Assembly (NCBI GenBank): GCA_013368315.1
Contig: JAACJM010000002.1
Location: 992,001 to 1,056,000, forward strand
Origin: Tetrapyrgos nigripes
Lineage: Eukaryota; Basidiomycota; Agaricomycetes; Agaricales; Campanellaceae
Length of the DNA stretch: 64,000 nt
Direction of reading: 5' to 3'
Notes under the pieces: generated by a model
Told to the model about the DNA's origin: nothing
The model's database searches: none
The model's input: only the letters and a program-made list of their open reading frames with translations
In this document: piece by piece, positions 19,356 through 42,342 of the stretch
How the letters are laid out: every line of letters starts with the position of its first letter
Position numbering within the stretch: position 1 is the stretch's first letter
Program-made: the position numbers and the translations under genes

Positions 19356-19465
19356 ATGCCTCAGGCTGCTGCATTACCCCCTCAGAATCAGCCTGCACAA
19401 ATCATCCCCCTCCCCCAGGGCGAGTGGGCAATTTCATTCAACCATCCAACAGAGCATCCACTGCC
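19356..19465 (+). pseudogene. 5' piece of the reading frame that received the 22.6-kb composite unit
   Basis: Reads MPQAAALPPQNQPAQ, then EWAISFNHPTEHPLP up to the left 9-bp repeat. Joining its last codon to the sequence after the right repeat (42087) keeps the frame (PLP then ARWKENRS). The protein is unknown and rich in Pro and Gln at its start. Confidence 0.4.
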
Positions 19466-20410
19466 AGTTGTCCACTTTTCGCCCTCAACATGTGATGTTC
19501 TCACAGACAGAAAAGGAAGGTTATTTGTCCTCGGCAAAAGGCGGCTACATTTTGTCTCGAACAAATAAAGATTATTCGGACGAGCTCTGGAGCTCCTAAA
19601 TTTGAATACATTTGTACAACAGAGTATCTACTCAAGTACGTGGGCCCGAAGGACCAGAAAACTGTCCATAAGGCATGTAATAATAGGGATAAGGAGGATA
19701 ATAATGAGTATAATGTTGAGAAGGTGTTGGATACACCTGGGTTTGACTTGGGTAAGGTAAGGCTATATGCGGAGCGGCAACAGCAGTGGGAATAGGAGGT
19801 GCAGAAGAGGGAGGTGCAGCAAGTGGAGCAGGAGCAGTGGAAGGTAAAGGCAAGGATTGAGAAGATGAAGTAGATATACTAGCTGACGCACCCCGGTTCT
19901 GCGAAACGACTCACCATGACCCCACTCATCCCTCGCCAACAAAGTGAAATGAGCTTGTCGTCCTCTTCTCGTTCTAGCCACTCTCGGAATTCTTCCATTG
20001 AGCCCCATGACATTGTGTAGTTGTGGCATGAATCGTATTCGAATGTTCCGGGGATGCTGTACCTGTCCCGATCGCAAGAACTGAATTTAGAATTGGCGGC
20101 GTGTGTCTGCTGATCGTTGATGGCATCAACGGGTATAGCGAGGCTCGGAAAAGGTGGAGAGACATCGGGAACAGAGGTTTGGAAGCTGGAGAACATTGCG
20201 GACGATGAGGAGAGGAGGTGAAAACGGTTGAAAGTCCAATTTTCCCAATTGGGAACCTAGTGGTCCAAGTTCTTTTGTTCTCCTTTCTGGCTTCCGGACC
20301 ACCGAGAAATATTATTCACCGAAAACTTGCTGAAAACTACAATATCTCTACATGACATAAGCACCTGCCTAATCGAGACGTCACGTGTTGAGGGCGGAAA
20401 GTCAAAACCT
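19466..20410 (-). mobile_element. MULE-like TIR element, copy A
   Basis: A 945-bp element whose ends share a 30-bp imperfect TIR (core CGCCCTCAACA(C/T)GTGA). The outer end starts AGTTGTCCAC; the inner end, read inward as the inverse complement, starts AGGTTTTGAC. The 9-bp flanking duplications and the protein it encodes suggest the Mutator-like group. It is non-autonomous, with no transposase catalytic domain. It is the inverse of copy B with only scattered substitutions. Confidence 0.75.
19632..20196 (-). CDS. Protein of MULE-like copy A (FAR1-like N-terminus, Pro/Tyr-rich tail)
   Basis: Starts MFSSFQTSVPDVSPPFP at 20196 and reaches SMEEFREWLEREEDDKLISL, a helix typical of the start of FAR1/MULE-type DNA-binding domains. 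A GTGAGT donor after GMSGVM joins an AG near 19880 and leads to STSSSQSLPLPS, a Pro/Ala-rich stretch and a Tyr-rich end (YYPPYPYYYMPYGQF), stopping at 19632. The ORF is open in this copy; copy B carries stops. The rest of a FAR1 domain and the DDE transposase are absent. DNA binding is inferred only. Confidence 0.45.
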
Positions 20411-21171
20411 GTGTACCACGCCATTCTCTATTCCTGGATCGCACTCTACCTGCAAATTTATTCCCTCGGTAAGTCATCTACGCAAGTATGAGTGTCTCGC
20501 CCAGAATGTCCATCCTTTGTCAGTGCTTTCGCTCTTCCTTCAGGCCAACTCTTCATGATTGCGAACAATCAGTCCATCATCTATGATATCGACACCGGTC
20601 TAGAAACACCTCTTCCTGACATTCCTAACGGTGTACGCGTCACGAATCCTTTTGACGGAACCGCCGCTCTTCTTCCTCTTCATCCTCCGTACTACATACC
20701 TCGTATCCTTGTTTGCGGAGGTACCAAAACCTCAACCGACGGTTTACGAGGCCCTTTAGGGTCTCGTTCTTATAACCTGACGTTTCTGCGTGTGGCTATG
20801 CTCGATAACTCGACCGGTCCCCGGTGCCATTTGATCACCGTAACCGGTCATCGGCCGTTGCCGCAAAGACGCGTGATCTGCAACGCTCATCATCTTTCAC
20901 CCTTACTCATCGCTGCTCACCATCCATGAACTGATTACTTGGGCCTCATTACTGCCACGCGAAGCGGTGGCCCACAGCTCCTTCATTGACCAATGCCCCC
21001 GAGGATTTGAAGAAGCTCAATTCGCAGGATCCAGCGACTGATCAATGTACGACGATAGAATTGACGAAAGAGGGGATTGAAAAGGGATGGGTCATGGAAG
21101 ACAGTATGCCGGAGGCGAGGGTTATGCCGAATGGGAAGGTATTGGTGATCAACGGGGCAGAGACAGTCCTC
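20411..21171 (+). pseudogene. Glyoxal oxidase, 3' part (continuation of 40735-41129)
   Basis: Begins at GTGTACCAC and reads on from the other half: RHSLFLDRTLPANLFPR, a 54-nt intron (20469-20522), then [35 protein letters not shown] and [13 protein letters not shown] small element at 20742-20977 interrupts it; removing it restores APSLTNAPEDLKKLNSQDP and ATDQC, then MPEARVMPNGKVLVINGAE. It is cut off at about 21171 by an LTR fragment, so the copper-site C-terminus is missing. The family is clear and the gene is dead. Confidence 0.75.
20742..20977 (+). mobile_element. 236-bp hairpin-ended element inserted in glyoxal oxidase without TSD
   Basis: Starts GTTTACGAGGCCC. Its right end has GGGCCTCATTAC followed by a hairpin GCCAC-GCGAAGC-GGTGGC and CCACAG. 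Deleting 20742-20977 restores the glyoxal oxidase frame exactly (GAC G|CT CCT), with no duplicated bases. Inverted motif plus terminal hairpin plus no TSD fits a Helitron-like non-autonomous element. Confidence 0.65.
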
Positions 21172-21309
21172 CAAATAACAAGTTTTATACTTAACCCACA
21201 TCGCTCTACAAGCCTCTAAACAAGCCTAACAAGCTATCTCTTATCCCCAGGTAAGTAGCGTAGTTGCCACTGCGTTTAGTAGTGTACAAGCCGTACCATG
21301 CCTGCTTAA
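21172..21309 (+). mobile_element. LTR fragment related to the copia LTR at 28899
   Basis: Shares with the copia LTR the stretch CATCGCTCT...CTCTAAACAAG, TCCCCAGGTAAGTA, and the end CCTGCTTAACA. Only the 3' half is present; it truncates the glyoxal oxidase 3' part. Confidence 0.6.
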
Positions 21310-22240
21310 CAGTGGTGAATGTGAAGTTTGACCCACTTATGAGCTTTCATCTTTGGTTCATGATCATCTCGGCCCTCGAGTGCTGATGAGATTTCACCTC
21401 GTAATTATAATGATGTCAATATCCGAAACGGTTGTATGACAGATGATATCATTTCGATGATCGGTATTCTACCACCTCGTCCACCTAATCATATCAGGTC
21501 CAACGACCGTGCGCCTCAGTCTAGGCAGAGTTTAACTTATGTAGTGACCCCACTTTTGCGACGCATGCACATCTAGAGTTAGTGAGCGTAGTTCTTGTGT
21601 GTTCTGTAAATATCATGGAGGAAACAGCGAGTCGTTCAATCAGTCCTGACAAGAACCCTATGAAAATATTCGAGATTTACGCCAGCCCGAAAAATATCCA
21701 CTTTGTATCCACTGATCCGTGTGTTGCGTGTCAGCTTCGGGTTGTACTTGTTATTCCCGGAAGCCTATAGCTTCACACCTCTGGCATTCGGCAAAGGAAC
21801 CAGCTTTATCATCGAGAATTGGGAGAAATACTTCTTTACGACTTTACTAGTCTCTCGGAGACCCCTACGTTGAAAGTGTTGAGTAGGGTTTACTCATCTT
21901 CTGTAGGACCTAGGTCTTTTGACCACTCTTGACTCAGACTTATCTTACCAAGTACGAATCCTATTTATAGGACGAGTCTTATTGTGAGCTCAAATGGCCG
22001 CATTTTTTGTATCCTGGGAAAATATATCCTATTCTGTCAGACTCAGCACGTGCCTAAGCACCTTCTACGCAAATTCTCTGCTATTCTCTGTCCAGCTTTC
22101 ATCAAGCAACGAATCAGTGCCCAGTGCCCAGTCCACGACACACATCTACCTCTTTAGAATCAATTCATCAGTAAAACTCAGTGCGTATGAAATGAGGACT
22201 CGTACCTGCCGCCAGTGTATACAGTGGCCCTCACCGACAT
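21310..22240. other. Unassigned sequence inside the composite unit
   Basis: Short ORFs only, none with a recognised domain. No RNA gene or clear repeat was seen. Confidence 0.4.
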
Positions 22241-23617
22241 CATCAGTAAAACGGCAAACTGGCTTTTTGCAACTTTTACGCGACTTTTTCCGATCCGCAC
22301 CATACTTTCAAAAGTCGCCAGAAAAGCTGCTGGAAAGGTGAAAGGAAAGCTACCGAATAGCATTAGCCAGAACCAGAAAAGGATGTGCTCGCATTGCTCA
22401 CACCGCCCAATAAAATGGATTGAAAAAAAGTATGTATTGCATAAACTATCTGTAGTAGATACATGAACTTGAAGAAAGTACTACTAGTCTACATGGTGTG
22501 CCCTCCGTAACCTTTGCCCCACAACAATCTGGAATAACCACGCCCCCCCCCCCCCCCCCTGACTCTCCCTGGAAAGTGCCATTTTGTCCTAAGTAAAATG
22601 TCAGCTTCTGTAGCACATGTCAACAGAAGGAGTCACATACCAAGAAAATGAGAACCAACCATGGACAGGGCAATGGCCAATGCATAAACTGACTTTCCAT
22701 CCATGCTGATCAAACGAGCAGAATTAGTGCAGTGTCAATTTCTAAGGGGAAAAATGACGCACCAGAAAAATGAAGACTATCCTTCCAGTGTCCTCGCAAT
22801 GCAACCAATGGTTTCTGAAGGATAGGGCCGGGTAAGACTTCTTGCTGAGCAGAGGAGAAAAATAAGTACCTTGAAGCCACGTCCTCTTATTGTCATCACC
22901 TGGCAAATAGTTCGGGCTGGCATAAAGAACCTGAAATGAGTTGGACAATCCGCTGGTCAGCAGGTTTATAAACACGTGACAAAAAAAACATACTACATGC
23001 CACAGCAGCACTGAGAAAAGTCTTCATGTAAGTAGAAAGGAAGGCAATGAGAGAAAGGTGTATGAGGTTGAGGTGTAGGGGATAGACAGGGATTGGACAA
23101 GGAAGATGGATGCGCAAGTTTGTCAACCACATGTGATCATGGATAACTATATAGTTTCAGAACGGAGTCTGAAATTGCCAATGCTGTGGCCGCGTACTCA
23201 GAAAATTCCAAGTGCGACCAGGCAAACCCTCCTCTCCATGCCAGATTGCTCTATGTAGCCTCTCCTGCAGTCTTCTGACCATGCTGGCTTAAATTATCAC
23301 CAATCTTTGCTTGATCTTTGCACATGCAGCAGCCCTGGAGTGCCCCAGACCTCACGTTGTGTACTACATGTGTTTTGGTATGTACTTTATGTATACTTAC
23401 AGTAAATAAACTTGTAGGTAGAAAAAAGTCCTCCTCCGAAGTTGTCATAAAAGTTGGCAGAAAAGTTGTTGAAAAGCTGAAGCTGTCCGGACAAAAGTAA
23501 AAGGCGGGAAAAGCTTTGGTCAGAAAAGCTGATCAAAAGGCTTTACAGTAAAAAGTTACCGAAAGCTCCAAAAAGCCGGGAAAAGTGGGGAAAAGTCAAT
23601 TTGCCGTTTTACTGATG
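22241..23617. mobile_element. 1.38-kb TIR element (CATCAGTAAAACGGCAAA ends)
   Basis: The left end CATCAGTAAAACGGCAAA is matched by its inverse complement at the right end, with AT on both outer sides. Sub-terminal sequence is rich in GAAAAGC / AAAAGTC motifs. A right end of the same family lies at about 49500-49650. No transposase; it contains a run of about 18 C near 22544. Confidence 0.6.
22742..23027 (-). CDS. Possible small secreted protein (hypothetical)
   Basis: A minus-strand ATG at 23027 begins MKTFLSAAVAC, which looks like a signal peptide start. A GTATGT donor follows, and an AG near 22934 continues SLCQPELFAR. Further splicing is unclear. It lies inside the TIR element at 22241-23617, so it may be captured debris. 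No family was recognised. Confidence 0.2.
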
Positions 23618-23851
23618 ATATTCAGTTTTCGAGTAGTTGGCTGTACCACCGTTTGAGATTACTGAGCGAGAAGAGTAGCTTACAAAGGTATTTAGGTCCA
23701 GAGTAGTATAAAAAGCCTGTAAATTAAAAGTACGTAGCAAATCTCTTCATCTGACCGGACTCAGAGATACCTCAGACATGCAGAAGCGTATGACGTCACC
23801 TCAACACAAACTCACATGATCTAGGCTCGCAAACTTCAAGCTTCAGCATAC

Positions 23852-24202
23852 ATGACAAGCCTATCTGAAGACGCGTCCAAATCTACAGAGCGCTTGTCCC
23901 CTGCTGGCCTTGCCTTCCTCAAGCCCGAGTCCAAAGGCGTGCTGAACAACCAGGTTCCTGCTGGTCCATCTTCCCCTGGTGGCATGACCACCGACCCTAT
24001 AGACCCCACGAATTTGATTGACAAGCCCAACCCAGAGGAGGAGAAGGAAGACCTCATCAGCCAACGCCTTCTAACAGCAAGAACTATGCTCGGACATGCC
24101 TTCAAAATCCGTCGTCTCTGGCCTCACAACCCTAAAGGGCCTGACTTGTACCCCACTGCCTACAGATTTGGAAAACGCGCCCTCAACACACACGAATTGT
24201 AG
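23852..24202 (+). CDS. Hypothetical protein, 116 aa
   Basis: An uninterrupted frame from the ATG at 23852 to 24202. It has a Ser/Pro-rich N-terminus (LSPAGLAFLKPESKG, VPAGPSSPGG), an acidic NPEEEKEDLISQRLL segment and a basic end (FKIRRLWPHNP). No transmembrane segment or known domain was recognised. It precedes the kinase-like gene by about 0.4 kb on the same strand and could be a remnant of a larger gene. Confidence 0.35.
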   Translation: MTSLSEDASKSTERLSPAGLAFLKPESKGVLNNQVPAGPSSPGGMTTDPIDPTNLIDKPNPEEEKEDLISQRLLTARTMLGHAFKIRRLWPHNPKGPDLYPTAYRFGKRALNTHEL

Positions 24203-24613
24203 AGTGCAAGTCTTAACTGACTGTTTCTGACCCAGAGTATGCCTCCAATGCCAGTGCAAATGGCTCCGGTTCAGTGAGCAAGATGGCGGGGAGATTGGTG
24301 AAGTGGATTCTGCAAAGGAGGAAATAGAGGAGGCAGAATCGGAGGGGAATCCGAGAAGGAGAGAATGGGCCGATGTCAGGAGGATCTGGAGGGAGAGAGA
24401 TTGGGTAATCAGAGTGGGACGTGAAGGTGTTAGTGCAAGGGTTGATGGTGTTCATGCTGAAGCCGTTGGGGTATGTTGTCGTTCTTTCTACGTTAGAGGA
24501 CCATACTCATGCAGCTGCAGTTGAACATAAAACCCTTCCACCCCGAATCATACCCCTTCCCCTGGCCAATCTGAGCATTCAGCACCAAACCTTATAAACT
24601 TCAACAGTCCATA

Positions 24614-26295
24614 TCTTTCCGTCGTCTGCCCGAGAAGTTGATTGTACATGATCTGTATGACTTACTACACGTTTTGAATGGTGAAGACCGTGTCGAAGCA
24701 CAGAACTTGAAGGATCAAATCTGGCCTAAGAACGCAACCAAAGACAAGACCTACGCATATTGCTTGAAGCTCTCACCTTCGACTATCAATGCTGTGGAAA
24801 GAAAGCGCGAGGAGTTGAGGAAGAAGGCCGAGATAAGCCAGAACTCGGTCAAGGTATTAGAATTCCTCGTTGACGCGGAAGGACAAGTAGTGCAATCCAA
24901 CTCAGCACAGATTGAAATCGACTCTCTGGAGCCAACCAAGAAGACAACATGTGTAGCAGTAACTGTACCTCCATCGCCCTCCCTATTGTCTCCATTTCAC
25001 GCTCATCTATACCTATCACCGTCCTGCAAACTCGGAGAGGGGCACCATTCGCTGCCAGGCTGATATACGGTGCCGAGTGGGAAATTCCAAGGGATATATT
25101 CGTCGACAACCACGATGAGTATCAGGATGATTACGAGGAAGGATGGCCAATTTATGATGAGTGCGTTAGGCTGGAGGGAGAAAGGACGTATTTGGAGAGA
25201 CTTCAAGGTCGCATTGACAACGGGGTAATGGGTACTGACTCTGAGCTGGAGACCGAGACCACGATACTCATTGAGAATGTTCCTTGGTATTGTCATGGAA
25301 CCGATATATGGCCTTGTGAGCACGCTGATAGCTTGCGTACGTCTTCTCTTTCTCCTCCAAGTCTATAACTCGGTCTTAATCGACATCTTCTCCTAACTCT
25401 AGTCAACGCCTCCAGTGACATGCATGCATCTGACCCTCCTCCGATTCATCCATCAACTTCCCTTGTTCACGTCATAGCCAAACTCTCCATCCCAAACGAC
25501 AATCATCTCGCTCGTGAAGCTGTAAATTATCAACGTTTCCCAAAGCACATGAGTGAACATTGGTCCGGGTTGACATGTGCGTATCCTGTCAAGGACCCGA
25601 CAAGATGTGGGGCAACTGTGCCTACTTGGTATGGCTTTTACGAGAGGGAATATAATGAGGATGATGAGAATAGTAGCTCTGAGGATGAGCAGTACTTCAG
25701 CCCGATCATGTTGATGGAGGATTGTGGAAAGCCAATAGAGTTGAGAAAGCTGGATGGGCATGACGTGTACGTGGTTTCTCTCTCTTGAGCTGCCACCCAT
25801 CTAATACAAATCTTGCGCACCAATAGAGCTGAATGCACCGCCCTCCTAACTGGCTTTCATCACTACGGTTGGATTCATGGCTCATTTGCTCTGAGAAATA
25901 TACTCATGTCATATGGGGATCATAGCCTTTACCCTCAAGAGCACGAAGAGGAGGTCGACGAGGCCAAGGGGCTGCACAAGTTGGGTATCCCTGGGACTAT
26001 GGATCTGAATGAGGACGATCAAATGCCGGACTCTCAGAGGAGGTTTCGGTTGATTGATTTTGGAAGATCGGAATGGATGAGTGATTTTGTGAACGAAGGT
26101 AAGAATAGGGATCGATTTTATCGTATGAAAGAGTATTTGGAGATTGAGGGTGATCATGCTGGTGGTATGAAGGTAAAGGATAGGGAGTTTCTTCGGGAGA
26201 TAAAGGATACGTATCCTCAAGATTGGCGTAAGTGGGACGAAGAGAGGTTCTTCGAAAAGAATGAAATTTTCAAAATCCTCAATTATCTTTGTTGA
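24614..26295 (+). CDS. Protein-kinase-like protein with atypical HGS catalytic loop, possibly frameshifted
   Basis: The first exon-like part reads LPEKLIVHDLYDLLHVLNGE. A frame change near 24945 leads to SIPITVLQTRRGAPFAARLI, EWEIPRDIFVDNHDEYQDD and RTYLERLQG. After an intron near 25340-25402 come LVHVIAKLSIPNDNHLAREA and ILMEDCGKPI-like sequence; after a second intron (about 25769-25827) comes FHHYGWIHGSFALRNIL with FRLIDFGRSE. The HGSFALRN loop replaces the usual H(R/G)D aspartate while DFG is kept, as in a basidiomycete-expanded kinase-like family. It may be inactive as a phosphotransferase. The first frame change is unexplained by a clean intron. End at 26295. Confidence 0.6.
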
Positions 26296-26299: not shown

Positions 26300-26960
26300 C
26301 TTGTCTGTGTGGGGTTGTGATTATATAGGTTCTGGACTTGTGTGAATAGATTCTATAGACTAAACCTTCGATTCATGTTATACATCGGTATAGTGACAAT
26401 GCAGTGACCCTATCCTATACAAGTGTGAATGCTAACCTCGTTTTTTGTCAAAACCAGAACCACGAAATTCAAAACAACATAACCCACCTCGACGAAATCA
26501 GACTAGAATAATCTGTTGCTCCGCTCAGTTATACACGGACTGCGCCTCCAGGGATAAGAGGAGACGATCAGGTTCCTGTGAGTGGTAATCTTTACTCCCT
26601 TTTGTCGCTTTTGATTCGTCTCTCCGTCCAACGTCCAACTCGTCCCTCTATAGTCATACTGCGATTATTGGTAGACTGGCTAAAAAAGACTGGTGCTCTT
26701 AGTGCTCTTCTTTCTTTGTATACCTGTAGCTCTCTTTAAAAAACTACAGAAGTATCTTTGACACCTACCGTATTTCTCTGCACAACCAAACAACACCTTC
26801 AGAACAGTGCTCAAGTTTCCATGGTGACTGCCGCTGCCTACTACATAGTACATGGTGATCTGATGAACGTTTGAAGGTACGTACATAGCCTCTTCAATAG
26901 ATGTGATAGTCATCTTTGAGTATATCAATGCGCCTGTTCTTTGCCCTTTCTACTCAAAAA
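26300..26960. other. Intergenic spacer, nothing recognised
   Basis: AT-rich spacer between the kinase-like gene and the next spliced gene. Only short ORFs on either strand. Confidence 0.4.
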
Positions 26961-28272
26961 ATGTCGACGCAACTGCCTAGGTAAGTGCAATCCATAACTT
27001 CCATTGTTCTATACTTGTAGCTAACACAGAACACAGTTATGTCACCCTTCCTGACCCCGAAACTTCACAACCGCTTACGCAACGCACGATGGAACCAATC
27101 CCTGAAGTAGTCGACAGAACATTGGAGACCACTGCTTCTGTAGACCCCCAAGGTCTACTGAGATGGGCATGGCATCCTCCAAGTCCTCAGGCTTCTGCTG
27201 CTGTTGAAGGACAGCCTCTTGACAACGATAATCATCACGTCCCGTTTGGAGCACCACCAGGGTAAGTTTATTGCCCATCATCGTTCTCGACGTCAGGCTA
27301 CATTGGCAAAGCTATGGACTGTTCAATTATTGATGCTGTCGATATAGGTATACTAGAGCGGAAAGGCCAGAGAATAATGTCACCTACAGCTTAAGTGCGG
27401 GAGAAGCTCCAAACATGTATCTGTTGGTTCTGTCTGTGGATTCTCCAAATACAAGACCACGGTTTCATGCAACTGTTGGTAGGTTTCATTTGCGTTTTCC
27501 ACCTTGATATTTGCACCAAACATGAATTTAGGAATGGATCTGATGAATCCCTTCTCGTTCATCACGAGTACATTCTAAGCTGGATGTCAAAACATACTTA
27601 TCTTGATGTGTCTAGCCATTCGTCAAGGAGGGCCAGAGAACGGACACTTTGTCGGTGAATTTGAGTAAGTGTCTCCGAGTATCTTGCCTATGTTTTTATT
27701 CATTGTGTTTATCTTGCAGAATGGGCCATGCTCAACTTGCATCCAAAACAACGGATTGGATTACCTACGGTGATCTCCAACGAAAACAACTTTCGCATGT
27801 AATAACCAAGCAGTACTGCACAACGAAGGACCACAATATGCGGCTCAAGTATTCTGGGGTGAGTATCTACTCTTTTCACTTACTTGTACCCATAAGGACT
27901 GATGTGAATGGAACGACGCAGAAACCACATCGATGGAGGTATAAGAAAGAGGTCGGTCATCATCACTCTAGAATCTCTAAATTCCCACTGATGCATTTAT
28001 AGGAGTTCTACTGGTGGTGGACGCCCCTCGCAAAGCAACCCGTACAATGGCGTTGCTACGCCATGGCAGAGGAAACTGTCCAAAAACAGGAGAAAGCAAA
28101 ATTATACGCAACTTATACACCCTTGCAGCAAGTGCGGCATGTTGCTCAGGTGGAATTGCTTATGAGGCAATTGGAAGTGAATCCGGAGGCTCATGATTTC
28201 CTGGACCAGATTCTAATTTTGTTGTTGATAGTTGAACGGAGGAGGCTTGCTCCGACGTTTCCTTCTGGATAA
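26961..28272 (+). pseudogene. DUF6593-like hypothetical protein, multi-exon, probably damaged
   Basis: Exon 1 is MSTQLPS (26961-26980); exon 2 is 27037-27261 (YVTLPDPETSQPLTQRT...). The next exon reads YTRAERPENNVTYSLSAGE, NMYLLVLSVDSPNT and RFHATVG, then GMDLMNPFSFIT joined to IRQGGPENGHFVGEFE and WAMLNLHPKQRIG. A frame break follows near 27810 (NFRM then stops). Afterwards HRWRYKKEEFYWWWTPLAKQ and EAHDFLDQILILLLIVERRR lead to the stop at 28272. The W/Y-rich middle and the final hydrophobic '(V/L)..ILI..(I/V)E' helix resemble DUF6593 proteins of mushrooms. Function unknown. Confidence 0.45.
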
Positions 28273-28629
28273 GGTGGGAGTGAATGAAACAGTGTGCTGT
28301 AGTAAGTAATAACACAGAGGCTATTTCGCAGCGGAAGCCTTGGCTTTCACCTCGGGTCTTCCGACCGCAGGCAAACTGGCCAAGCTACTCGTGCAACTAC
28401 AGCACATGTACATTCCCGCTCCATGTCAACTGTTATGATCCCCTAGACTCATTCCCAGCCGGTTGGTAGAAAAGCGCCCTGGCGGAGTCCCCGACTCCGG
28501 ACCGAAGGGACAGGAGGAGGGACGTGTCCCACCGATCGATCAACAAATTCGGGTTCTGAAATTTTAAACGGCGATTCCCGCATGAGGTCATTGTTTTCAG
28601 CGTTCCATTGCCTTCTACGCTTTACCACC

Positions 28630-28895
28630 ATGACTCTCTCGCAATGCCTCGGTCTTGCTGCCAGCGCGTGCCCATTATTCCTTGCTCAACGTCGTCAGAG
28701 CTCTTGCAACTTTTGTCTGCTATCGACCTATTGCATCTCCACCAGCGTGTAGTAGACCATACAGCTCCGAACAAGCAATCTAAAATATTGAGAGCTCGTT
28801 TCAAAGCCGATGTTATTGCTGAAAAGCTACTTTATTCAGAGAATTTCGTCTACAGCTTTCTTGTTTGCTCACGAATATGAAGCAAAGTGTCAAGT
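28630..28895 (+). pseudogene. Decayed Helitron-like ORF, 5' part (copy 3)
   Basis: Starts MTLSQCLGLAASACPLF and keeps similarity to 7635-7900 (APNKQSKILRARFKADVIAE) through frame changes, until the LTR insertion. The remainder, also decayed, is at 39564-39780. Confidence 0.5.
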
Positions 28896-28898
28896 AAT

Positions 28899-29182
28899 TG
28901 TTGAATTGGCGAATTAGTAAGCAGCCATCAACATTAGATTAGATGTAGATTAGATAGTAACCTAGTTAGTTACACTTACTTACATCAGTAGTTCTTAGAT
29001 AAGTAGTCACATGTACTATCTAGAACAGTATATAAGGGCTCGTAGATTGCCCTACAACAATAAGGATTTCCCTTAACACTCATCGCTCTTAACCTCTAAC
29101 AAACCGCTCTAAACAAGCACTTTTACATCCCCAGGTAAGTATGCAGCTGCCGCTACATATATAGAACATAGCCTGCTCAACA
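28899..29182 (+). repeat. 5' LTR (284 bp)
   Basis: TGTTGAATTGG...CTGCTCAACA. Contains TATATAAGG near 29031 and a GTAAGT donor near its 3' end. By eye it differs from the 3' LTR at 5 positions (about 98% identity), 4 of them transitions. Confidence 0.93.
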
Positions 29183-29196
29183 GGTTATGGGCCCCG
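29183..29196 (+). other. Candidate primer binding site
   Basis: GGTTATGGGCCCC directly follows the 5' LTR. It is close to the complement of the anticodon arm of initiator tRNA-Met (loop CAU), which would imply half-tRNA priming as in the Drosophila copia element. Confidence 0.45.
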
Positions 29197-29456
29197 CAAG
29201 CCCTGGACATCGCGGCATCACTGGCAGCCGTCCTAGACTGCGTAATACCTGGTAGCGCCCCTGCGGCTGCTTGAACATCGCCCTCTGAGGCAGAAGTTCT
29301 TTACATGCGCCTTCATGGCTGCTGTATGTGCTCAGTAGCGCCTTCATGGCACACCGGGGATAATAGCCAGTTTGCGTTCTCGACTACGTGCGAAAATGCG
29401 CCAAACAACGCGCGTAGACCTACCACATAGCATCTTGTACCGCTACATACTGCAAC

Positions 29457-30657
29457 ATGCCTCGTACTCGACGCCAGACTGCACAGATCCCACAAGAACC
29501 TGAGTCGTCTGAGTCTCCAGAACCTGAAAGTTCACCGTCTAGCCAAGCTGAGAGCTCCGGTGATGAAGGATCTGGGACCGAGGATGAGCACACTTCTGCT
29601 GATGAAGCGGACCTCGATGGGGATAGCCAACTTGAAGACATTGGTACCAACTCAAAGGCAGGAAACCGTCAATCTAGCAATTGGTTACCTTGGCAAGACC
29701 GCATGCTAATCCAGCAAGTCAACAAAGTATGGCCATTTGAAGCGAAGGGAAAGTCTGGTCAGAAGTGGGAGGAGGTGTCTCATGATCTACTGCAGTCTCA
29801 GTCGGAGGATGGAACGAAGAAGACACCAATCCAACGCTCAGGCCAATCGTGCAAGAGATGGTTTAACCGGCTCATCGAAGCCCACCAGGTGAGTTACTAC
29901 TCTCTCTTCTGAGGGTAATATATCTAAAAGGGTTACAGCGTGGTGAGTCAGAGTCTCTTCAGAAGACAGGAACCAATGAGGAGGTGACGGGCCATGTCCA
30001 GGTATTATTTGTTTCTTTAAATGTATACCACGCTCATTTTCCATGTATATTTAGCTTATGGCGGAGATATATTCCCTCTTCATCGAGAACCAGTCAAATG
30101 TCAAGTCATTGAGCGCTAAGGCACAACAGAAGGTCCAGAATGAGGCTAATGCAGGGCTGGAGTTGCGAGAAGCCTCCATGAAGGGTATGGTGCCCCAGGA
30201 AGGGCTCACTGATGTTGCTGTTGGGAATGCCACTGTACGAGAGCGTCAAGGGCAACGACGGTTCGGTTTTTTTTTTTTTCTTTTATTTTTCCCACTTGTT
30301 GATAGATTTTTTTCTAGTCGGTGTGTGGAATCCGACTCGGACTCTGATTCCGACAACAAGGAAAATCTTGAACCAAAGCGCAAGCGAGTCCACACCAGTG
30401 TTGCTACGTCTGTCAAGGATGCTATTCAACAACATCTCGACAATAATGATTCCGCCGTCCAAGAGGCCCAAGAACGTGAGTCGAAGAGGCAGGAGCAGAC
30501 CGAAGCCCTCTTGACGAAGGTGGTGGAGTCAAATGACAAAGTCGCCGAGTCAGTCAGTCAATTGGTTAATGCTGTTAACACCATGGTCGACACACAGCAG
30601 AAGGAAAATGCAAATGGGCAATCAAAGTTACTTGATGCACTTTTGAGGAAGATTTGA
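29457..30657 (+). CDS. Myb/SANT-like accessory protein of PIF/Harbinger
   Basis: Exons 29457-29888, 29939-30001, 30055-30260 and 30318-30657 give about 346 residues; the last intron (57 nt, polypyrimidine-rich) is also open as coding. The N-terminus is acidic and Ser/Glu-rich. The trihelix-like domain reads WLPWQDRMLIQQVNKVWPFE, then GQKWEEVSHDLL and SGQSCKRWFNRLIEAH, with regularly spaced Trp. The C-terminal part is a Gln/Glu-rich coiled coil. In this superfamily the protein binds the element ends and helps bring the transposase into the nucleus. The frame is intact. Confidence 0.75.
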
Positions 30658-31879: not shown

Positions 31880-32242
31880 GACATCCAGAACTTGCAGAAG
31901 AAGTTACTGGAATTGCCATCGTTGTTCTAGGAGGAGCACTTCCATGGTGATAATGAGTTGTAATATTTCAAGTTTTTCGAGATGTACAAGCTAACAAAGG
32001 TCTTTATTGAGAGGAAAACGAGGACTACACGGGTTGTTTGGCGCAATGCAAATTTTCGCCTTAGGCGTTAACGCACGTGCCATTTTCGCATGTAGTTGAG
32101 AACGCAAACTGGCTAATCACTGTCATAAGTGCGCTAGCCGCAGCTTTTCATTTATTTTATGGCGTGTCCTTAACGCCGCTACTTATCTTGCATATAGGAT
32201 GTTATGCTGACAGTTTGATTATATCCCCAGATCACATTTGAA

Positions 32243-33268
32243 ATGTCTTCCGGATCAAGCTTTATGTCCACCTTTCCAGAACTCACTGGACCAAACTATA
32301 CCCTTTGGGCTAGTAAGTCCAAATCTTGGCTTCAATCTCAGGGCATCGCCTATGTCCTTAATACTCTCAAACCTGGAGAAATCCAAATCATCGGATCCAC
32401 ATCTCCTGTACCGGCTCCTCCCACGCCTCCCGCCGGAAGGACTGGTGGCACCACTGCTGCAGCTGCTGGCGCTGCCACAGATGATGAAGGATCTGACGCT
32501 GGTAGTCCTTCCCCTCACTTCATTGCTGGTAGCGTTGCTGATTGGGAAAAGGATAACAACAAAGCCATGGGTGTCATCAAACTCCGTGTCACTCAAGCCA
32601 TTGGTGTCAAAATCGAAAATATCACCACCGCTAGAGTCATGTGGGATACTCTCAAAAATCTCTATGGTACACCTGGAGCTGCTGAAATTTTTCAGAATTT
32701 CAAATGGGCTATGAATGTCGAGATCCCACGTAACGCTCATCCCAGTCAAGCAATTGATCTCATCAAAATGTACCTAACTCGTATCACTGACACAGGTGCT
32801 AACACCGAGATCCCCATGTATCTCCAATACATGATCGTTATCAACAAACTCCCTCCTGACATCTATGCCTACATCATTGCCAGAATCACTCAGGACGACG
32901 TCGACGACTTTGAACATGAGATGCTTGATAGTCTCCGAACCCATGTTGTTAACACCTGGGAGGCTCGTGGCGGAAAGAAATCTCAATCCGCCAACGCCAC
33001 CAAAATCACGGCAATCAAATGCAAAGGCAAACCCCCTGTCTTTGAGAAACAGCAGCAGCAGCACCATAAAGGCGGCAGCAGCACTTGGAGAGGCAAAGGC
33101 CGAAGACGTGGCGACTGGCGAGGCCATGGAAAACACGTCAGTGAACAAACACGCCAGAAGCAACAAGCCCAGAGCATGGGTCCTAGTTCTTCAAGGAAAC
33201 TCCGACCATCACGGTCACGGAGCCCTCTACCAAAGATGTGCGTAAACCATTCTTTAGCGAGTCGGTAA
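32243..33268 (+). CDS. Copia gag polyprotein
   Basis: A 341-residue open frame. It starts MSSGSSFMSTFPELTGPNYT and holds the copia gag core: LTGPNYTLWASKSKSWL, MWDTLKNLYGTPGAAEIFQN, then LPPDIYAYIIARIT. The C-terminus is basic and Gln-rich; no CCHC knuckle is evident in this frame. It overlaps the next frame by 30 nt (33238-33268). Intact, unlike the rest of the element. Confidence 0.8.
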   Translation: MSSGSSFMSTFPELTGPNYTLWASKSKSWLQSQGIAYVLNTLKPGEIQIIGSTSPVPAPPTPPAGRTGGTTAAAAGAATDDEGSDAGSPSPHFIAGSVADWEKDNNKAMGVIKLRVTQAIGVKIENITTARVMWDTLKNLYGTPGAAEIFQNFKWAMNVEIPRNAHPSQAIDLIKMYLTRITDTGANTEIPMYLQYMIVINKLPPDIYAYIIARITQDDVDDFEHEMLDSLRTHVVNTWEARGGKKSQSANATKITAIKCKGKPPVFEKQQQQHHKGGSSTWRGKGRRRGDWRGHGKHVSEQTRQKQQAQSMGPSSSRKLRPSRSRSPLPKMCVNHSLASR

Positions 33269-34678
33269 AGCCTTTTGACAGATTTTTCTCATCTGTTCAG
33301 AACGCCTTTAAAACCACTCGTGATAATGGGTTAAAGCCAACTGGTGAGTCCCTCAAAGACCTTGAACTAGCACACATGTCTGATTCCAAAGCCTCTACCT
33401 CTCTCCCTTGTCCCTCTATCATTTCCGATGGTCGTTCTTTCATGGAACGATATTATTGGCAAAATCTCGTCGCCCCCTATCCTGAAGGTCACACCTTCTC
33501 TCACACCGATTCCAACCCCGCTCACGATGACAACCACTGGTTTGCCATCCGCAACAATCAATCTACCTCCGACCGTTGGGGTGCCGCCAACTGGGGCACT
33601 CCACAACAACAGGAGGTGTGGAACAACTTCGGGTGGGTGCAGGACAAGTGCGTGGGAACGGACGACAACACCGAAATGGCCGAGGAAGATGACAGGCTGT
33701 CGGACAGCCTCATTTCCAATGTGGGGAGCATGAACTCGGAGGAGTTCGAAAGGGAAAAAGAGGAGTCAACCAAGCGCCTCAGAATGTGGGAGGCCGGTCT
33801 CGTCGACATGGGGGATTCCGACAAGGAGAACGTCGACCCCAACCCCAGAATGCTTGAGGAGCGACTTCAAATGGTCAACGACAAGATGACGCAAAGGTGG
33901 TATTCGGGGGAGTTCGACAGGGAGTACAACGAGGGCCTCGACCAGATGAGTGCCTCCAATTCATCGGGGTGGAGCCAAGCATGGTCGGTTACCCCCTTAT
34001 TCGAGGAAATCTCCACATCCCCGCATGCTTCCAACTCGGATGCCAACGGGGATGCCGACTCCCTACCGGACCTCATAACACCACCGTCGAGTTCTCTGGA
34101 TATGGACGTTATATCCCTCGGGTCTGACTCCGAGGAGGAGATGATTTCCGAGAGTTGGAATGATGGCAGGTACTACAGGTACGCCACACCCTCTTTCTCT
34201 TCCATTGTGAATAGAGTATCTGACACTTCCCATACAGTGCAGATAATGAGCCCGGTCGCATGTGAATTATTATTATCACATGCTTGTAACATATTTATAC
34301 ATACCGCTCCTCTGGATTCTATTAGCCCCTCTATTTATAATGTACCAAATATATTATGTCCCTGTGGGACTTATTATTCATCTTGTGTGAATTGTAAGGG
34401 AAAGAACACTCTCATCAACCAGAAACATTATGACAACGCCTGGTTACTTGACTCTGGAGCATCTGCTCATTATACTTTTGACTTAACCGATTTCGTTGAG
34501 TCACATAAAGTAGATCCAATCTCCATTCAAACTGCAAATGGAGTTACCAAAACCAATACCACCGGTACTGTCATCATACAACAGGGATCTCGTTACTTTA
34601 AAGTTGCCCCTGTTTACTATGTTGCCAATCTCAATCAACAGTTACTGTCACTTGGCACATTCCTACAGTCAGACAGAG
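33238..34678 (+). CDS. Copia pol 5' part with aspartic protease
   Basis: The open frame from 33238 has a long acidic region (MAEEDDRLSDS, DSDKENVDPNP), a Cys cluster (CPCGTYYSSCVNC), and the protease motif AWLLDSGASAHYTFDL with SIQTANG and NLNQQLLSLGTFLQ. It runs into the hAT-like insertion at 34679. The acidic insert is longer than usual for copia elements. Confidence 0.7.
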
Positions 34679-35833
34679 AAGGGCTTCGCACCGTCCAGTA
34701 ATACTGGTACGGTATACCCGTCCTCGTATTCGTACTGGTTCATCTAGAAGCCTGTACGGTACTGGACGGGTACAGGTATGGCAGTAATACTGGTTACGGG
34801 GTCATGCTGCTGCAGCTGGAAGAAATACTACAAGCGACACACCTTTTACTGACTTCGTGTTGTTTTTAAGACTTGTAGAACTGAACTGGAGGTCAGAAAC
34901 TAGTGTTATGCACATCACCATAGCTCTCTGAAAGATTTTCACTTGGCCTTTGTGACTCACTGACATCTGAACAACAGCTCATCAGCATCTTTTTCATCAG
35001 GATTTGCACAGATCAAGCGCAGATATATCCTTCGGGCTTGGATTTTCACCTCGCTTCGACCACTTCATGTACAAGAATGACGAAAACTTGGTGAAAAGGA
35101 CTAAAATTTAAGGAAAAGTCATTGCCGGGGCTTGACCGACCCGTATACCGTACCAACCTGTATGATGGCCGTGAAGGAGAAGGTGATATATGGGTTATAC
35201 CCATACAGTACAGTCCCGTATTTTTTCTCCAAATCTTGCTATTGTCAAGGTTGTCGGTACACTCAATAACCACCCAAGTCACACAATGCGAGAAAGCCGG
35301 TTACAAGAGGATAGATTGATCAAACGAGATAGAGAGATAGAGAGATAGAAAGAAAGTAAGCTGACTAGGCTCTACACTGCGTAGTGAAAGTACGGAGCAG
35401 AGACGAAGTGAATGAACTAAGGAATAGGTTACAAGGATCATAGGTATATAAGTAAAATGTGAACAGATGGGAAAGAGTAAGTAACAATAGACAGTATCAT
35501 GTGGAAACATCAAGAGCGAGAGAGTAATGAGTTAAATATGGATAGATGAAGGTACTGGATCATAAGGAATGATTGACAGTGAGAATGTCCGTGGAGATAG
35601 GAAGCGGAGGAAATAAGAGTGTGAGTCATAGATATATGGGGATGGTAACTATAGATGATGATGGGAAATGGTTGATGTTTATGGGGTTAAAGTGGGAAGT
35701 AGGTAGTAAAAGGAAAAGAATAGAAAGGAAATGAATAGGCGGGGAGCGATTCATGACAGCTATAAAGTACGGGGTCGTATTTCCATACGGTTCCCGTATA
35801 ACTGTATGGATACTGGTACAGTGCGAAGCCCTA
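34679..35833. mobile_element. hAT-like non-autonomous element in copia pol (1155 bp)
   Basis: Ends (A/T)AGGGCTTCGCAC in inverted orientation. 8-bp flanks AGACAGAG (34671-34678) and AGACAGTG (35834-35841) match at 7 of 8 positions. Sub-terminal inverted sequence includes GTACCAGTA / TACTGGTAC repeats. No transposase; a GATA/GAGA-rich stretch lies at 35320-35720. Confidence 0.7.
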
Positions 35834-36985
35834 AGACAGTGACAGTTCATGGATTAGACCAAATGATTATGCTGATGAAGCATGAAAAAATGACAGATGT
35901 AGATGGACATGCAATGCATTGTTGTTGGTTGACATTCACCAAACGATCGCCGGAAGATACCATTTACTATCTTCCACATACCAAAACTGACGTCGCCTCC
36001 TTGGCAGACGCTATGATTTACGAAATCAACTTTGACTTAGCACATCAACGCGCTGGTCACCCTTCTTGTGATGTTCTCAAACATCTTCAAACACATACCG
36101 ACGGCTGGCCTGAATTCAATATTCCTTTACAACCACCTATTTGCTGCGGATGTCTCGAAGGTAAAACACCACAACGAGTTTACCCACCATCAGAAAGTCG
36201 GGCGTCGCATCCCTTTGAATTAATCCATTCGGATCTCAAAGAATTCTCCACTGAATCATACCACAAGTTCAATTACATGATAATCTTCTTGGACGACTTT
36301 ACATCTAATGCATGGGCCTTTCTATTGAACAATAAGAAAACGCCAGTACATGTAACTCGCCAATGGCTCGCCATGGTTGAGAATCAATATAAATCTAAAG
36401 TTGAACAATGGATGTCCAATGCAGGGGGAGAATATATCAAAGGTGCCTTCAGAGAAATGTTGAAAGACAAAGGCATCAAGATCCTACAAAGCACGCCATA
36501 CACCCCCCAACAAAATGGTCGTGCTGAGCGCCTCATGCGCACTATAATGGATAAGGCTGAGGCGATGCGCAAACACGCGTGTCTTCCTGATAGCTGGTGG
36601 GAATTTTGTGTTACACATGCAGTGTATTTGTATACACACACTCCGATGCGGCGACATGACTGGATAACACCATATGAAGTTCTGGAAAAGAAAAAGCCTC
36701 GTATGGACCACTTACGTGTGCTTGGCTGCGGAGCATATGTCTTCGTTCCCGTGAAAATTTGAAAGAACAAACTCGCTTCCAAAACAGAACTTATGACCTA
36801 TCTTGGTCCCGCCCCTGGTGGACATGGTGATCTATTCATGAGAAAAAACAATGCATTATTCACTGCACCACAAGCAGTATTTGACGAAACTCTGTTTCCT
36901 TGATGTGACAAAAGCACAACAAACTCAAAAGACTTCCTATAACGTCAAAAGACGTTCCAAATGATCCTAATGAGGATGTTCCTCA
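35834..36985 (+). pseudogene. Copia integrase, mutated
   Basis: Zinc-binding region FDLAHQRAGHPSC...CCGC, then the rve core: HSDLKEF (first Asp), WMSNAGGEYIKG where copia integrases have D in 'SDNGGE' (second Asp replaced by Asn), and PQQNGRAERLMRT (Glu). Ends VLGCGAYVFVPVKI with TGA in place of an expected Arg codon (36760-36762). Further TGA and TAA codons and a frame change follow by 36940. Catalytically dead as read. Confidence 0.8.
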
Positions 36986-39159
36986 AATGTTCGGTGAAGA
37001 TGAAGACGAACATTTTTACATACCAACCAACGCACCTTCCAAAAGGAGACCTGATGTTCGGCATGACGATGCTGACAGACAGAGTCTGCGGAGATTGCCA
37101 CCAGAAACGCTGCCCCTGAGATCTGAATCTGAACCTGATACACCACCTCAGCTTCCACAGACACCTCCGAGGCGACCAAGGCAATCACTGAATCCGCCTC
37201 CTGCACCCAGACGAACTCAACGTGACAGGAGAGCACCGAAAACATTTGTACCAGACTCTAATCAAGCCTGGAGACAGGGGAGCACTCAGCCCCCTGGCGT
37301 GTGTGCACGCGATGCAGATAAACAGGTCGCAGCTGATAAACGCGACACTGATAGAGCCGCAAGAGAACATGAGGTATGGCAAGAGCTAAACCAGCCACAT
37401 GCGCCTGCAGCCGCAGAACCACAGGATCCCGGTCCTAGTTCCACAGGACAAAGTGACTCAGGAGACGCTGATGAAGGTCTCAGGCCACATTTGTCCACAT
37501 CAGACAATGAGAATTCTGCATCTAATACAGATGGAAACGATCTTTTAGAAGATCAGGCACAACTATGCCGGGAAGGGGGAGTACAGATGATAAATCTCTT
37601 GCTTAATAATGCAATTGACTCTAAATCTCCCCACAAATGGACACTCCAAGAAATATCACTCTTACCAGATAAGGAGCAAGAGGAATGGAAAATCGCTTGC
37701 TGTGAAGAACTAGAGATACTTCGCAGGCACGGACCTTTCCAACTCGTAGATCGTCCTGAGAATAGGAAAGTCATAAAAAACTGATGGTCGAAAGAAGGCG
37801 AGACTCGTCACTAAAGGTTTCTCACAGATTGAAGGTCTAGACTTCGATCAAGTCTTCTCTCCAGTTGTTCGCTTCGAGACGGTGCGCCTAGTCTTCGCAT
37901 TGGCAGCCCTCAATAATTGGCACATCTCAGGTGTCGATGTTCGTAGTGCTTATCTTTATGGCATACTCGAAGAAGAGATCTATATGGAACAACCAGAAGG
38001 TTTTATAGAACCTGGAAAAGAACGCAAAGTCATTCGGATACTTTGCACTCTATATGGACTTAAGCAAGCCGGTCTTGCTTGGTGGAAAGGTCTTGACAAG
38101 TCCATGACAGAGCTTGGTTTCAAGCGAATCAACTCTGATGCCGGAATCTTCGTATATAATCAAAATGGTTACATTGTTATTGCCGTCGTCTACGTTGATG
38201 ATGCTCTATTCTGTGGAGCAGACAAGCAGTTAGTACTCAAACTGAAAGCGAAATTTATGAAGAAATGGGAATGCAGGGATCTTGGTGATGCCAAAGAATT
38301 TCTTAGGATGAACATTGTCAGGAAAGGCAGCAAGATTTATCTTGATCAATGCACCTACCTTGAAAAGGTACTAGAACGATGTGGGATGCAAAACGCGAAA
38401 GCTTCTGCTACTCCATTACCTGCAGGATATTATCCTATAAAAAACAAAGCCCCAGTAAACCCAGTCCTTTGACAGAAATATCAAACTGTTATCAGGTCTC
38501 TTCTTTACATCATGTTAGGAACTCGTCCTGACATCGCTTTTGCCGTTACCAAAATGGCACAACACGCTGCAAACCCTTCAGATGATCATTTAGCCAAAGC
38601 TCTCTGGATTTGTCGTTACCTTCTCAGTACTCGACACTATGCGCTAGTGTACGACGGATCTAAGAAAAAGATCACTGAATCAGATCCATTAGGAACTGGT
38701 CTTGCTGCATACACAGACTCTGATTGGGCATCAGATCCAAACGATCATTGATCACATACTGGCTTCTTCCTAACTTTGGCCCGTGGAACTTTCTATTGGG
38801 CCTCTAGAGCTCAAACCACAACCGCGTTAAGCTCTACTGAAGCTGAGTATATGGCACTTAGTGACTGTAGTCGCCAAGTTATCTGGATAAAAGCTCTCTT
38901 AAAAGAACTTAACATCGAGATGAAAGCTATCGATATCTATGGAGACAATCAAGAATCTATATTCATCGCATCCAATCTTGTTACAGAACGACGTTCAAAA
39001 CACATTGCTGTCAAATATCACTTTATCCGTGAACATGTAGCAAATGAGAACGTAACAATAAAGTTCATAGAAGGAAGCGATAATCCTGCTGATATGTTTA
39101 CAAAGAACCTTGGCAGACAAAAATTCGAGAAATTTAGATCACAACTAGTTGAACCTTAG
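36960..39159 (+). pseudogene. Copia reverse transcriptase and RNase H, broken
   Basis: A Pro/Arg-rich linker (36987-37784) ends EEWKIACCEELEILRRHGPF. A small deletion and frame change remove the usual 'RWVFD' block before DGRKKARLVTKGFSQ. RVT_2 core: VDVRSAYLYGILEEEIYMEQ, LYGLKQAGLAWW, and YVDDALFCG. RNase H: AYTDSDWASD, SSTEAEYMALSDC, YGDNQESIF. TGA replaces an expected Arg codon at about 38470 and again at about 38749. Ends at 39159, about 100 bp before the polypurine tract. Confidence 0.85.
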
Positions 39160-39262
39160 TACAACGTATGATAGAACCATGGTACAACATATCTCAAATA
39201 ACGAAGATGAACCTCAGCTGCTTATAGCGCCTTTATGCTTACGCACACTAACGGTGCAGCTT

Positions 39263-39274
39263 AGCAAGGGGGAG
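39263..39274 (+). other. Polypurine tract
   Basis: AGCAAGGGGGAG lies immediately before the 3' LTR, the expected plus-strand primer site. Confidence 0.8.
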
Positions 39275-39558
39275 TGTTGAATTGGCGAATTATTAAGCAG
39301 CCATCAACATTAGATTAGATGTAGATTAGATAGTAATCTAGTTAGTTACACTTACTTACATCAGTAGTTCTTAGATAAGTAGTCACATGTACTATCTAGA
39401 ACAGTATATAAGGGCTCGTAGATTGCCCTACAACAATAAGGATTTCCCTTAACACTCATCGCTCTTAACCTCTAACAAACTGCTCTAAACAAGCACTTTT
39501 ACATCCCCAGGTAAGTATGCAGTTGCCGCTACGTATATAGAACATAGCCTGCTCAACA
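39275..39558 (+). repeat. 3' LTR (284 bp)
   Basis: Same length as the 5' LTR, ending CTGCTCAACA followed by GTAAT. Confidence 0.93.
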
Positions 39559-40044
39559 GTAATGGACCGTGCTTTCGGTGAGGGCTTTTGTCGTCTGTTT
39601 GGTGAAAAGGTTTTATATTCAATGGTTCAGTCTGGGTGCTGTCAGAACTGATCAATTCATTCCGACTCCGGATGTAACCAACAATCATCACAAATCCTAA
39701 TTTTTGATCCCATTGATTTGTATCGACTGCAGTTTTTGGAGGAATGAGATTGGTGGCCTGAGTTTGAAGATATGGAGAGTAATGGTCCTATACTGCGGAG
39801 TGTTAATTGGTCAATTGCATGGGCTGCTTTATGGTGCATGAGTGGAAATGTTTTTGGAGCTACGCTGCTAGTATTGAGTACTAGTACTGTCAGGGTCCAG
39901 GGAACTTGCATATACGTCTGACCCAGTTTAACACTGTGACCGAATGACTTGATTTTCGAACCTCAACTTGATGAACTGCTGCTGAGTTCAATTGGGCTTA
40001 CAATGGAGTCGGGGACTGGCGCACAAGTTGCGCCGCTAAGAATT

Positions 40045-40734: not shown

Positions 40735-41129
40735 ATGCGTCCCTTTGCCTCGCCATCTCTCATCTCGTTTATGCTATTCCTATCGGTCGCTTCTGCCTTG
40801 ACTGACCAAGGTCTCAGTTGGCATTTTCAACGGGCGAATCAGACATCTGGCATCATAGCTTTAGAAGCTATGGTTGTTTCACCAACTCTCGTCCTCCTCT
40901 TCGATCGAGTTGACAGAGGACATCAAGCTTGGGGGGCTCTATGCGTTGAGAATTTATGATGGTTCCTTGGTGTGGTTCTATGTCGTTGATCCCCTTCTTG
41001 AAGTCACGTTGCTTTGACCTTCCTAGATAATCATCGGAGGCGTCTGTAACAGCATTCCATTCTTCAACGACCCAGAGTTATCCGCTAGTACCTTCGAGTT
41101 TTTCCCTCCCAAGGACGGAGGTGTACCAC
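40735..41129 (+). pseudogene. Glyoxal oxidase (AA5 copper radical oxidase), 5' part
   Basis: Signal peptide MRPFASPSLISFMLFLSVASA at 40735 (20+ residues, hydrophobic core), then the family start TSGIIALEAMVVSPTLVL and a damaged HQAWGAL. After a large internal loss the frame resumes at about 41027 with IIGGVCNSIPFFNDPEL and STFEFFPPKDGGVP, ending exactly at GTGTACCAC. Glyoxal oxidases are secreted enzymes that oxidise aldehydes and make H2O2 for lignin-degrading peroxidases. The 3' part is at 20411. The gene is disabled by deletion, an early stop and the split. Confidence 0.7.
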
Positions 41130-42077
41130 AGGTTTTGACTTTCCGCCCTCAACACGTGACGTCTCGATTAGGCAGGTGCTTATGTCATGTAGAGATATTG
41201 TAGTTTTCGGCAAGTTTTCGGTGAATAATATTTCTCGGTGGTCCGGAAGCCAGAAAGGAGAACAAAAGAACTTGGACCACTAGGTTCCCAATTGGGAAAA
41301 TTGGACTTTCAACCGTTTTCACCTCCTCTCCTCATCGTCCACAATGTTCTCCAGCTTCCAAACCTCTGTTCCCGACGTCTCTCCACCTTTTCCGAGCCTC
41401 GCTATACCCGTTGATGCCATCAACGATCAGCAGACACACGCCACCAATTCTAAATTCAGTTCTTGCGATCGGGACAGGTACAGCATCCCCAGAACATTCG
41501 AATACGATTCATGACACAACTACACAATGTCATGGGGCTCAATGGAAGAATTCCGAGAGTGGCTAGAATGAGAAGAGGACGACAAGCTCATTTCACTTTT
41601 TTGGCAAGGGATGAGTGGGGTCATGGTGAGTCGTTTCGCAGAACCAGGGTGCGTCAGCTAGTATATCTACTTCATCTTCTCAATCCTTGCCTTTACCTTC
41701 CCCTGCTCCTGCTCCACTTGCTGCACCTCCCTCTTCTTCTGCACCTCCTATTCCCACTGCTGTTGCCGCTCTGCATATAGCCTTACCTTACCCAAGTCAA
41801 ACCCAGGTGTATCCAACACCTTCTCAACATTATACTCATTATTATCCTCCTTATCCCTATTATTACATGCCTTATGGACAGTTTTCTGGTCCTTCAGGCC
41901 CACGTACTTGAGTAGATACTCTGTTGTACAAATGTATTCAAATTTAGGAGCTCCGGAGCTCGTCCGAATAATCTTTATTTGTTTGAGACAAAATGTAGCC
42001 ACCTTTTGCCGAGGACAAATAACCTTCCTTTTCTGTCCATGAGAACATCACGTGTTGAGGGCGAAAAGTGGACAACT
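41130..42077 (+). mobile_element. MULE-like TIR element, copy B
   Basis: A 948-bp element, the inverse of copy A, with the same termini. Its left end (AGGTTTTGAC) abuts the 5' part of the glyoxal oxidase gene at GTGTACCAC, and its right end (GTGGACAACT) abuts ACCACTGCC. Confidence 0.75.
41344..41911 (+). pseudogene. Protein of MULE-like copy B, two stops
   Basis: The same product as in copy A (MFSSFQTSVPDVSPPF at 41344; Pro/Tyr-rich end at 41911). It is interrupted by TGA after FEYDS and by TGA within FREWLE(*)EEDD, where copy A has CGA. The second difference is a direct example of CpG to TpG change. Confidence 0.6.
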
Positions 42078-42342
42078 ACCACTGCCTGCCAGATGGAAGG
42101 AGAATCGAAGTGAGTAATTCCATCTAACATGGGCAAGGTTGTTAACTTGATGAAAACTCGTAGCTAATACCTACAACTCTATAATGGAAGTCCTGAAATA
42201 TAACAGCATTGGTCACCGCAGATATCAATGGGCTCAACCACCTTACAAACAATCCACCACCCACCGAAAGGAGCACTGGGGTGAGTAATTTGATCTAACA
42301 TGGGCAAGGTTGTTAACTTGATGAAAACTAGCTCACACCTAT
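42078..42342 (+). pseudogene. 3' piece of the interrupted target gene, with two near-identical introns
   Basis: Continues the frame broken at 19465 (ARWKENRS) and reaches a GTGAGTAATT donor. Two intron-like stretches, 42112-42165 (54 nt) and 42272-42322 (51 nt), are almost identical, each GTGAGT...AG with a CTAAC branch-like motif. The short similarity around them suggests a tandem exon-intron duplication. The protein is unknown. Confidence 0.35.

Follow-up and report, generated by a model that had tools for sequence, protein, structure and literature searches.

Reversed-ends transposition (RET) of Ac/fAc elements in maize is among the closest described counterparts of the arrangement reported here. 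In the parts of the published accounts drawn on here, maize RET pairs a 5′ end with a 3′ end (PMC3744419), the segment between the transposons is joined into a circle, and the products comprise deletions, inversions, permutations, duplications and translocations, the way in which permutations form being undescribed in those parts (PMC4270019, PMC3744419). The same kinds of partial account give 8 bp as the length of the target site duplication (TSD) of Ac (PMC4270019), 9-11 bp as that of MULEs (PMC4334395), and 28 kb as the size of an Ac macrotransposon in one allele (PMC9910405). Herein, we analysed a window of 64,000 nucleotides of Tetrapyrgos nigripes (C2:992001-1056000 of one assembly of 98,461,257 bases in 587 contigs). 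In this window, two inverted copies of a short element, A and B, enclose a segment of ~20.7 kb that carries a glyoxal oxidase gene copy in circularly permuted order, and the whole unit of ~22.6 kb looks like a fossil of the unusual transposition reaction studied in maize.

As far as the maize accounts go, the locus resembles Ac/fAc RET in the facing ends of two nearby elements, the circle that the segment would have formed, the TSD at re-insertion and the permuted outcome. It differs in that maize uses a 5′ end with a 3′ end and leaves 8-bp TSDs, whereas here two ends of the same type (R and R) would be paired, the TSDs are 9 bp, the elements are whole and inverted, and the host is a fungus. 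This requirement for like ends is the new part with respect to maize RET. The primary paper on permutation by RET in maize is reportedly that of Zhang and Peterson (2004). With the Ac macrotransposon, as described in the part of its source used here, the unit would share the movement of a long stretch of DNA as a single transposon between two element ends, but it is bounded by like ends, L and L. In a bacterial replicative cointegrate, the cargo circle lies between two direct copies of the element; A and B stand in opposite orientations and turn the same end type outwards, and the failure of the classical cointegrate model that was noted in the preliminary description is confirmed. The citrus element CitMule, in the portion of its description consulted, also shows 9-bp TSDs mismatched through rearrangement ('dissimilar'), but it is a single element with a 2-Mb deletion and no permutation (PMC4334395). 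No report of RET in basidiomycetes was found in the open-licence literature. The features that make up the unit are as follows.

18533..19456, + strand: left half of host repeat H, with the homologues L032 and L033, both of which run on into the right half
19457..19465, + strand: left copy of TSD1, TCCACTGCC, present once in both empty-site paralogues
19466..20410, + strand: element A, 945 bp, L end outside and R end inside, 6 changes against the 9-copy consensus
20411..20419, + strand: left copy of TSD2, GTGTACCAC, matching the right copy perfectly
20420..21160, + strand: 3′ part of the glyoxal oxidase pseudogene, PF07250 positions 177-243 (E 3.2e-7, below the curated cut-off), paralogue L086
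20744-20986: 243-bp repeat interrupting the 3′ part of the pseudogene
21161..21312, + strand: dispersed repeat of ~151 bp, at which the recognisable gene ends, with sharp-ended genome matches, several of them paired ~6.7 kb apart
40735..41120, + strand: 5′ part of the glyoxal oxidase pseudogene, paralogue L086
41121..41129, + strand: right copy of TSD2, GTGTACCAC, matching the left copy perfectly
41130..42077, - strand: element B, 948 bp, R end inside and L end outside, 13 substitutions and a 3-bp insertion against the consensus
42078..42086, + strand: right copy of TSD1, ACCACTGCC, differing from the left copy at its first base
42087..45326, + strand: right half of host repeat H, matched over its full length by C106, which has one additional stretch, and by L033 up to 42945

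A and B lie in inverted orientation and are 97.7% identical across 951 aligned columns, in keeping with their earlier description as inverted copies of 945 and 948 bp. The aligned element measures 945 bp and has distinct ends, L (AGTTGTCC...) and R (AGGTTTTG...); both outer ends of the unit are of type L and both inner ends of type R, so that the pairing of same ends implied in the preliminary description is borne out. The two end types are identical at 27 of their first 35 bases, including a shared 16-bp core, which makes like-end pairing plausible. Each copy has private derived changes and no derived change is common to both, indicating that neither is a recent copy of the other. A recognised transposase gene was found in neither A nor B.

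The flanks of A and B were then compared with those of the element family. The own flanks of A match at 1 of 9 positions and so do those of B, whereas the cross-comparison gives 8/9 for A-left with B-right and 9/9 for A-right with B-left. The other near-full copies (L002-L008) have a perfect own 9-bp TSD in seven of seven cases. In the wider end-sharing family without A and B, 20 of 24 copies have an own TSD of at least 8/9; those that fall short are the inner element of L012 (3/9), L017 and L022 (2/9 each) and L087 (7/9, one-base shift). This count reads L010 and L087 with a one-base shift (1/9 and 3/9 unshifted) and leaves out L013, L024, L025, L026 and the outer element of L015 (the same elements or locus as L012, L011, L017, L022 and L012, respectively), L019 (the same as L087), L027 (one end only found) and 15 end matches. 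Random pairs of 9-mers from the window agreed at 9/9 in 11 and at 8/9 or better in 59 of 200,000 draws, and among 1300 cross-locus flank comparisons of 26 family copies, at least 8/9 was reached only by A/B and by the duplicated locus L012/L015. The window contains two instances of GTGTACCAC in all, both on one strand (20411 and 41121). CCACTGCC is present three times, at 19458, at 42079 and, inside an open frame, at 24153; this third occurrence is taken as chance, and it adjoins an end-like 12-mer (24153-24189, in the open frame), an unusual match.

At the outer site, a search with the left flank returned 49 matches, two of which besides the window covered the whole 566-bp query (L032, 96%; L033, 84% with indels). 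In both paralogues TCCACTGCC is present once, is followed directly by the right flank and has homologous sequence to its left and right, and the three sequences are 95.6-97.0% alike over ungapped columns, with 2 to 108 gap columns. The 8/9 repeat reported outside the pair was therefore recovered together with its empty site, and the L-bounded unit sits at a normal 9-bp target. One 8/9 TSD thus surrounds the whole unit, as around a macrotransposon, and two paralogues keep the empty site.

At the inner site, GTGTACCAC adjoins an R end at both 20411 and 41121, as had been claimed. The only other match in the assembly to the 5′ half of the gene with its upstream flank is L086 on contig C31 (73%). 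L086 aligns to 41019-41127 and to 20431-20473, the matches being 73% and 79% identical when the halves are compared apart, and the gap between them, 13 nt, equals the gap in the window with GTGTACCAC counted once, with no insertion or deletion at the site. The 9-mer common to both inner ends therefore lies inside the inter-element segment, and the paralogue is collinear across it. On this comparison, two R ends appear to have opened the gene at a 9-bp target, where it was then closed again. Staggered 9-bp events had been proposed at both sites; they are borne out by the junctions as assembled, by the pair of 9-bp duplications, by the empty site outside and by the collinearity with L086 inside.

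The glyoxal oxidase copy is a pseudogene: its middle is ~0.5 kb shorter than that of L086, introns counted; it is affected by the 243-bp and ~151-bp repeats; its PF07250 match is below the cut-off; and none of the 38 genome matches to PF09118 lies on contig C2, where a decayed domain could be missed. The earlier statement that two halves of a glyoxal oxidase gene meet at the 9-mer thus holds for the collinearity with L086, with the correction that the copy is defective. The ~151-bp repeat may be long terminal repeat (LTR)-like. A truncated LTR or possible circle junction, considered for the gene end near 21165, was dropped when this sharp-ended repeat was found.

Given that recombination keeps a flank with its own end and that independent insertions leave their own TSDs, two options are left: like ends that inserted jointly, or ends that were swapped exactly. 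From the end types, the shared TSDs, the outer empty site and the inner collinearity, we read the unit as the record of an L+L insertion and an R+R insertion. We give about even odds to its having arisen through two alternative transpositions, both carried out by a single family of DNA transposons with short terminal repeats. In such a scheme, A and B would be in opposite orientations on the two sides of a segment that contained a copy of the glyoxal oxidase gene. Their outward L ends would act as the ends of one large transposon, and A, cargo and B would insert at TCCACTGCC in H. The inward R ends would be cut as a pair, the segment between them would circularise, and the R ends would re-insert into their own circle inside the gene at GTGTACCAC, leaving the segment circularly permuted between A and B; the L+L and R+R events could come in either order. 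We infer the order of events, the identity of the circle with the inter-element segment itself, and a transposase that accepts both L+L and R+R. In a symbolic check with products written by rule, one of five arrangements, R+R insertion into the circularised segment, yielded the observed order. Both inner junctions are alike, and the orientation of the segment is accordingly not informative.

The symbolic check gave the same order for an independent circle and did not separate it from a circle made of the unit's own segment. An extrachromosomal circle that carried the gene and served as the target of paired R ends, or that itself carried the elements, in a cointegrate-like way, would leave the same junctions and topology; contiguity of the two empty sites, if given, would imply either a circle or a duplication of the gene. 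Such a circle would have to meet the paired ends, whereas RET itself supplies one, and a second close copy of the gene 5′ half at a donor locus was not found in the assembly; we regard this explanation as unlikely. The circular molecule of about 20.7 kb put forward in the preliminary description thus stands in its circular topology, and a separate circle, though compatible with the data, is not needed. A circle would still be required if one element sat in H and another in a circle-borne gene, with the R end of the first and the L end of the second being cut as a pair and each joined to the other's flank. This end swap, which resembles the hybrid joint of V(D)J recombination, needs only natural L+R pairs, and the sole TSD mismatch does fall on the flank base beside an L end, changed to its complement. 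However, three of the four junctions are base-perfect, whereas usual end joining rarely is, and the swap appears improbable to us.

The 3′-then-5′ order of the gene could also arise without a circle, by tandem duplication of the gene region, flipping of an element in place and then macrotransposition. More events are needed for this, no close duplicate of the gene 5′ half is left in the assembly, and we consider the route very improbable. We think just as little of a mis-assembly across repeats: the 587 contigs and the many nested repeats speak for it, but the paradox sits in four local junctions and not in long-range order, and the nest within the segment is consistent at each level (the GTAAT duplication of a copia element, a 0.9-kb repeat contiguous in L083, and the target of that repeat in L085). 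The least credible account combines ordinary independent insertions with homologous recombination or inversion. The private changes of A and B do mark them as separate copies, but recombination does not leave a single target with an L end at either side, and A and B lack TSDs of their own. End identity and TSD sharing rule out homologous recombination, inversion, recombination with a circle and independent insertion.

Several points weigh against the two-step alternative transposition that we favour. Like-end pairing would be needed twice and is drawn from one locus, whereas maize RET pairs unlike ends, and the ends would have to re-enter the excised segment, a step that the maize accounts cited above do not describe. 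TSD1 is mismatched at the element-adjacent base, where T is replaced by its complement A next to an L end; this could hint at end processing instead of a clean insertion. Neither the old circle junction of the segment, with its excision scar, nor the donor site was located, and the search for a donor remnant as a C-terminal orphan of glyoxal oxidase gave no conclusive match. Other L..L or R..R units around a shared TSD were absent from the loci scanned.

The assembly contains at least 45 matches to A, of which 9 are near-full (A, B and seven others, at least 98% identical to A) and 36 are short and match at the ends only. The 9-bp TSD length fits MULEs and differs from the 8 bp of hAT elements. 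No MULE transposase gene was found with these ends: the nearest of at least 26 PF10551 matches lies ~12 kb from an end match (C77), where both lists may be incomplete and several end matches were not examined. The label 'MULE-like' is thus tentative, TSD length being its one basis, with no transposase-bearing copy with these ends found; such a partner may exist. L087 (5.8 kb), the one long end-sharing copy looked at, is a short element of the 670-bp type. At ~518-5690 it is split by a hAT/DUF659-type element that is unrelated to it, has CAGTGTTGTCA-like ends of its own and gives a hAT dimerisation-domain match below the cut-off. A hAT assignment based on L087 was dropped, the hAT-type element being nested in the 670-bp-type one. 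A transposase-type frame from this genome has 27 protein relatives, the named ones from Tetrapyrgos, Mycena, Termitomyces and Moniliophthora, which points to an agaric-type basidiomycete, though weakly, the gene being mobile.

L012 (C195) and L015 (C140) are one locus present twice, with flanking blocks 99.4-99.5% identical, in which one short element is nested inverted in another; their R..R and L..L pairings were set aside as nested elements without a shared TSD. The outer element in C195 lacks ~130 bases, and the gap starts or ends no more than 3 nt from the R end of the inner element, a pattern like that of an adjacent deletion. L017 (C2:1292095-1292720) and L022 (C221:27574-28245), each with a TSD of 2/9, are possible further rearrangement partners.

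The interior of the permuted segment holds the following features.

22241..23617, no strand assigned: terminal inverted repeat (TIR) element of 1.38 kb with a 2-bp AT duplication
23850..26295, + strand: open frames of an unclassified gene, no Pfam match
26657..28303, no strand assigned: old dispersed repeat, two copies found (79% and 82%)
28488..28898, + strand: left part of a 0.9-kb dispersed repeat, resuming at 39564
28899..39558, + strand: copia element of 10.7 kb with a 5-bp GTAAT duplication on both sides
29364-32115: DDE_Tnp_4 element nested in the copia element
39564..40043, + strand: right part of the 0.9-kb dispersed repeat, which in L083 follows the left part without a break, with further copies elsewhere

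The copia element makes up about half of the 20.7-kb segment and has its own GTAAT duplication, which qualifies the circle size given earlier: the segment may have been ~10 kb. Between its LTRs there are 5 substitutions over 285 columns, not counting a gap at the cut end. Per lineage this is about as much change as A and B show, so that the copia element may have entered before or after the permutation, and the segment was then either ~20.7 kb or ~10 kb.

Three other copies of the 1.38-kb TIR element (L065, L066 and L070) also have 2-bp duplications. A further repeat, at 28443-28487 and 40044-40063, is contiguous in L085 and is the target of the 0.9-kb repeat, the 3′ end of which has a hairpin that is Helitron-like by eye. 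Rfam and tRNA scans of the window gave no matches. Beside H, large open frames at 10145-17794, two of them with DUF6570, Helitron_like_N and PIF1 helicase domains, mark a Helitron-type element, and 52006-58117 is densely filled with diverged repeats, both direct and inverted, and has long open frames on either strand.

The unit is a natural base-level record of the permutation of a cargo, an outcome described for Ac of maize in the accounts cited above. In a fungus, too, it suggests, a segment with a gene can be moved and rearranged by a short non-autonomous element, apparently by means of like-end pairs. Its signature, namely no own TSD, cross-matching TSDs and like ends, is searchable in any genome, so that the frequency of alternative transposition becomes measurable. 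It is doubtful that the family pairs like ends regularly, such that any two inverted copies would form a mobile cassette that jumps and permutes its cargo; if it does, genes would be broken or rejoined without homologous recombination.

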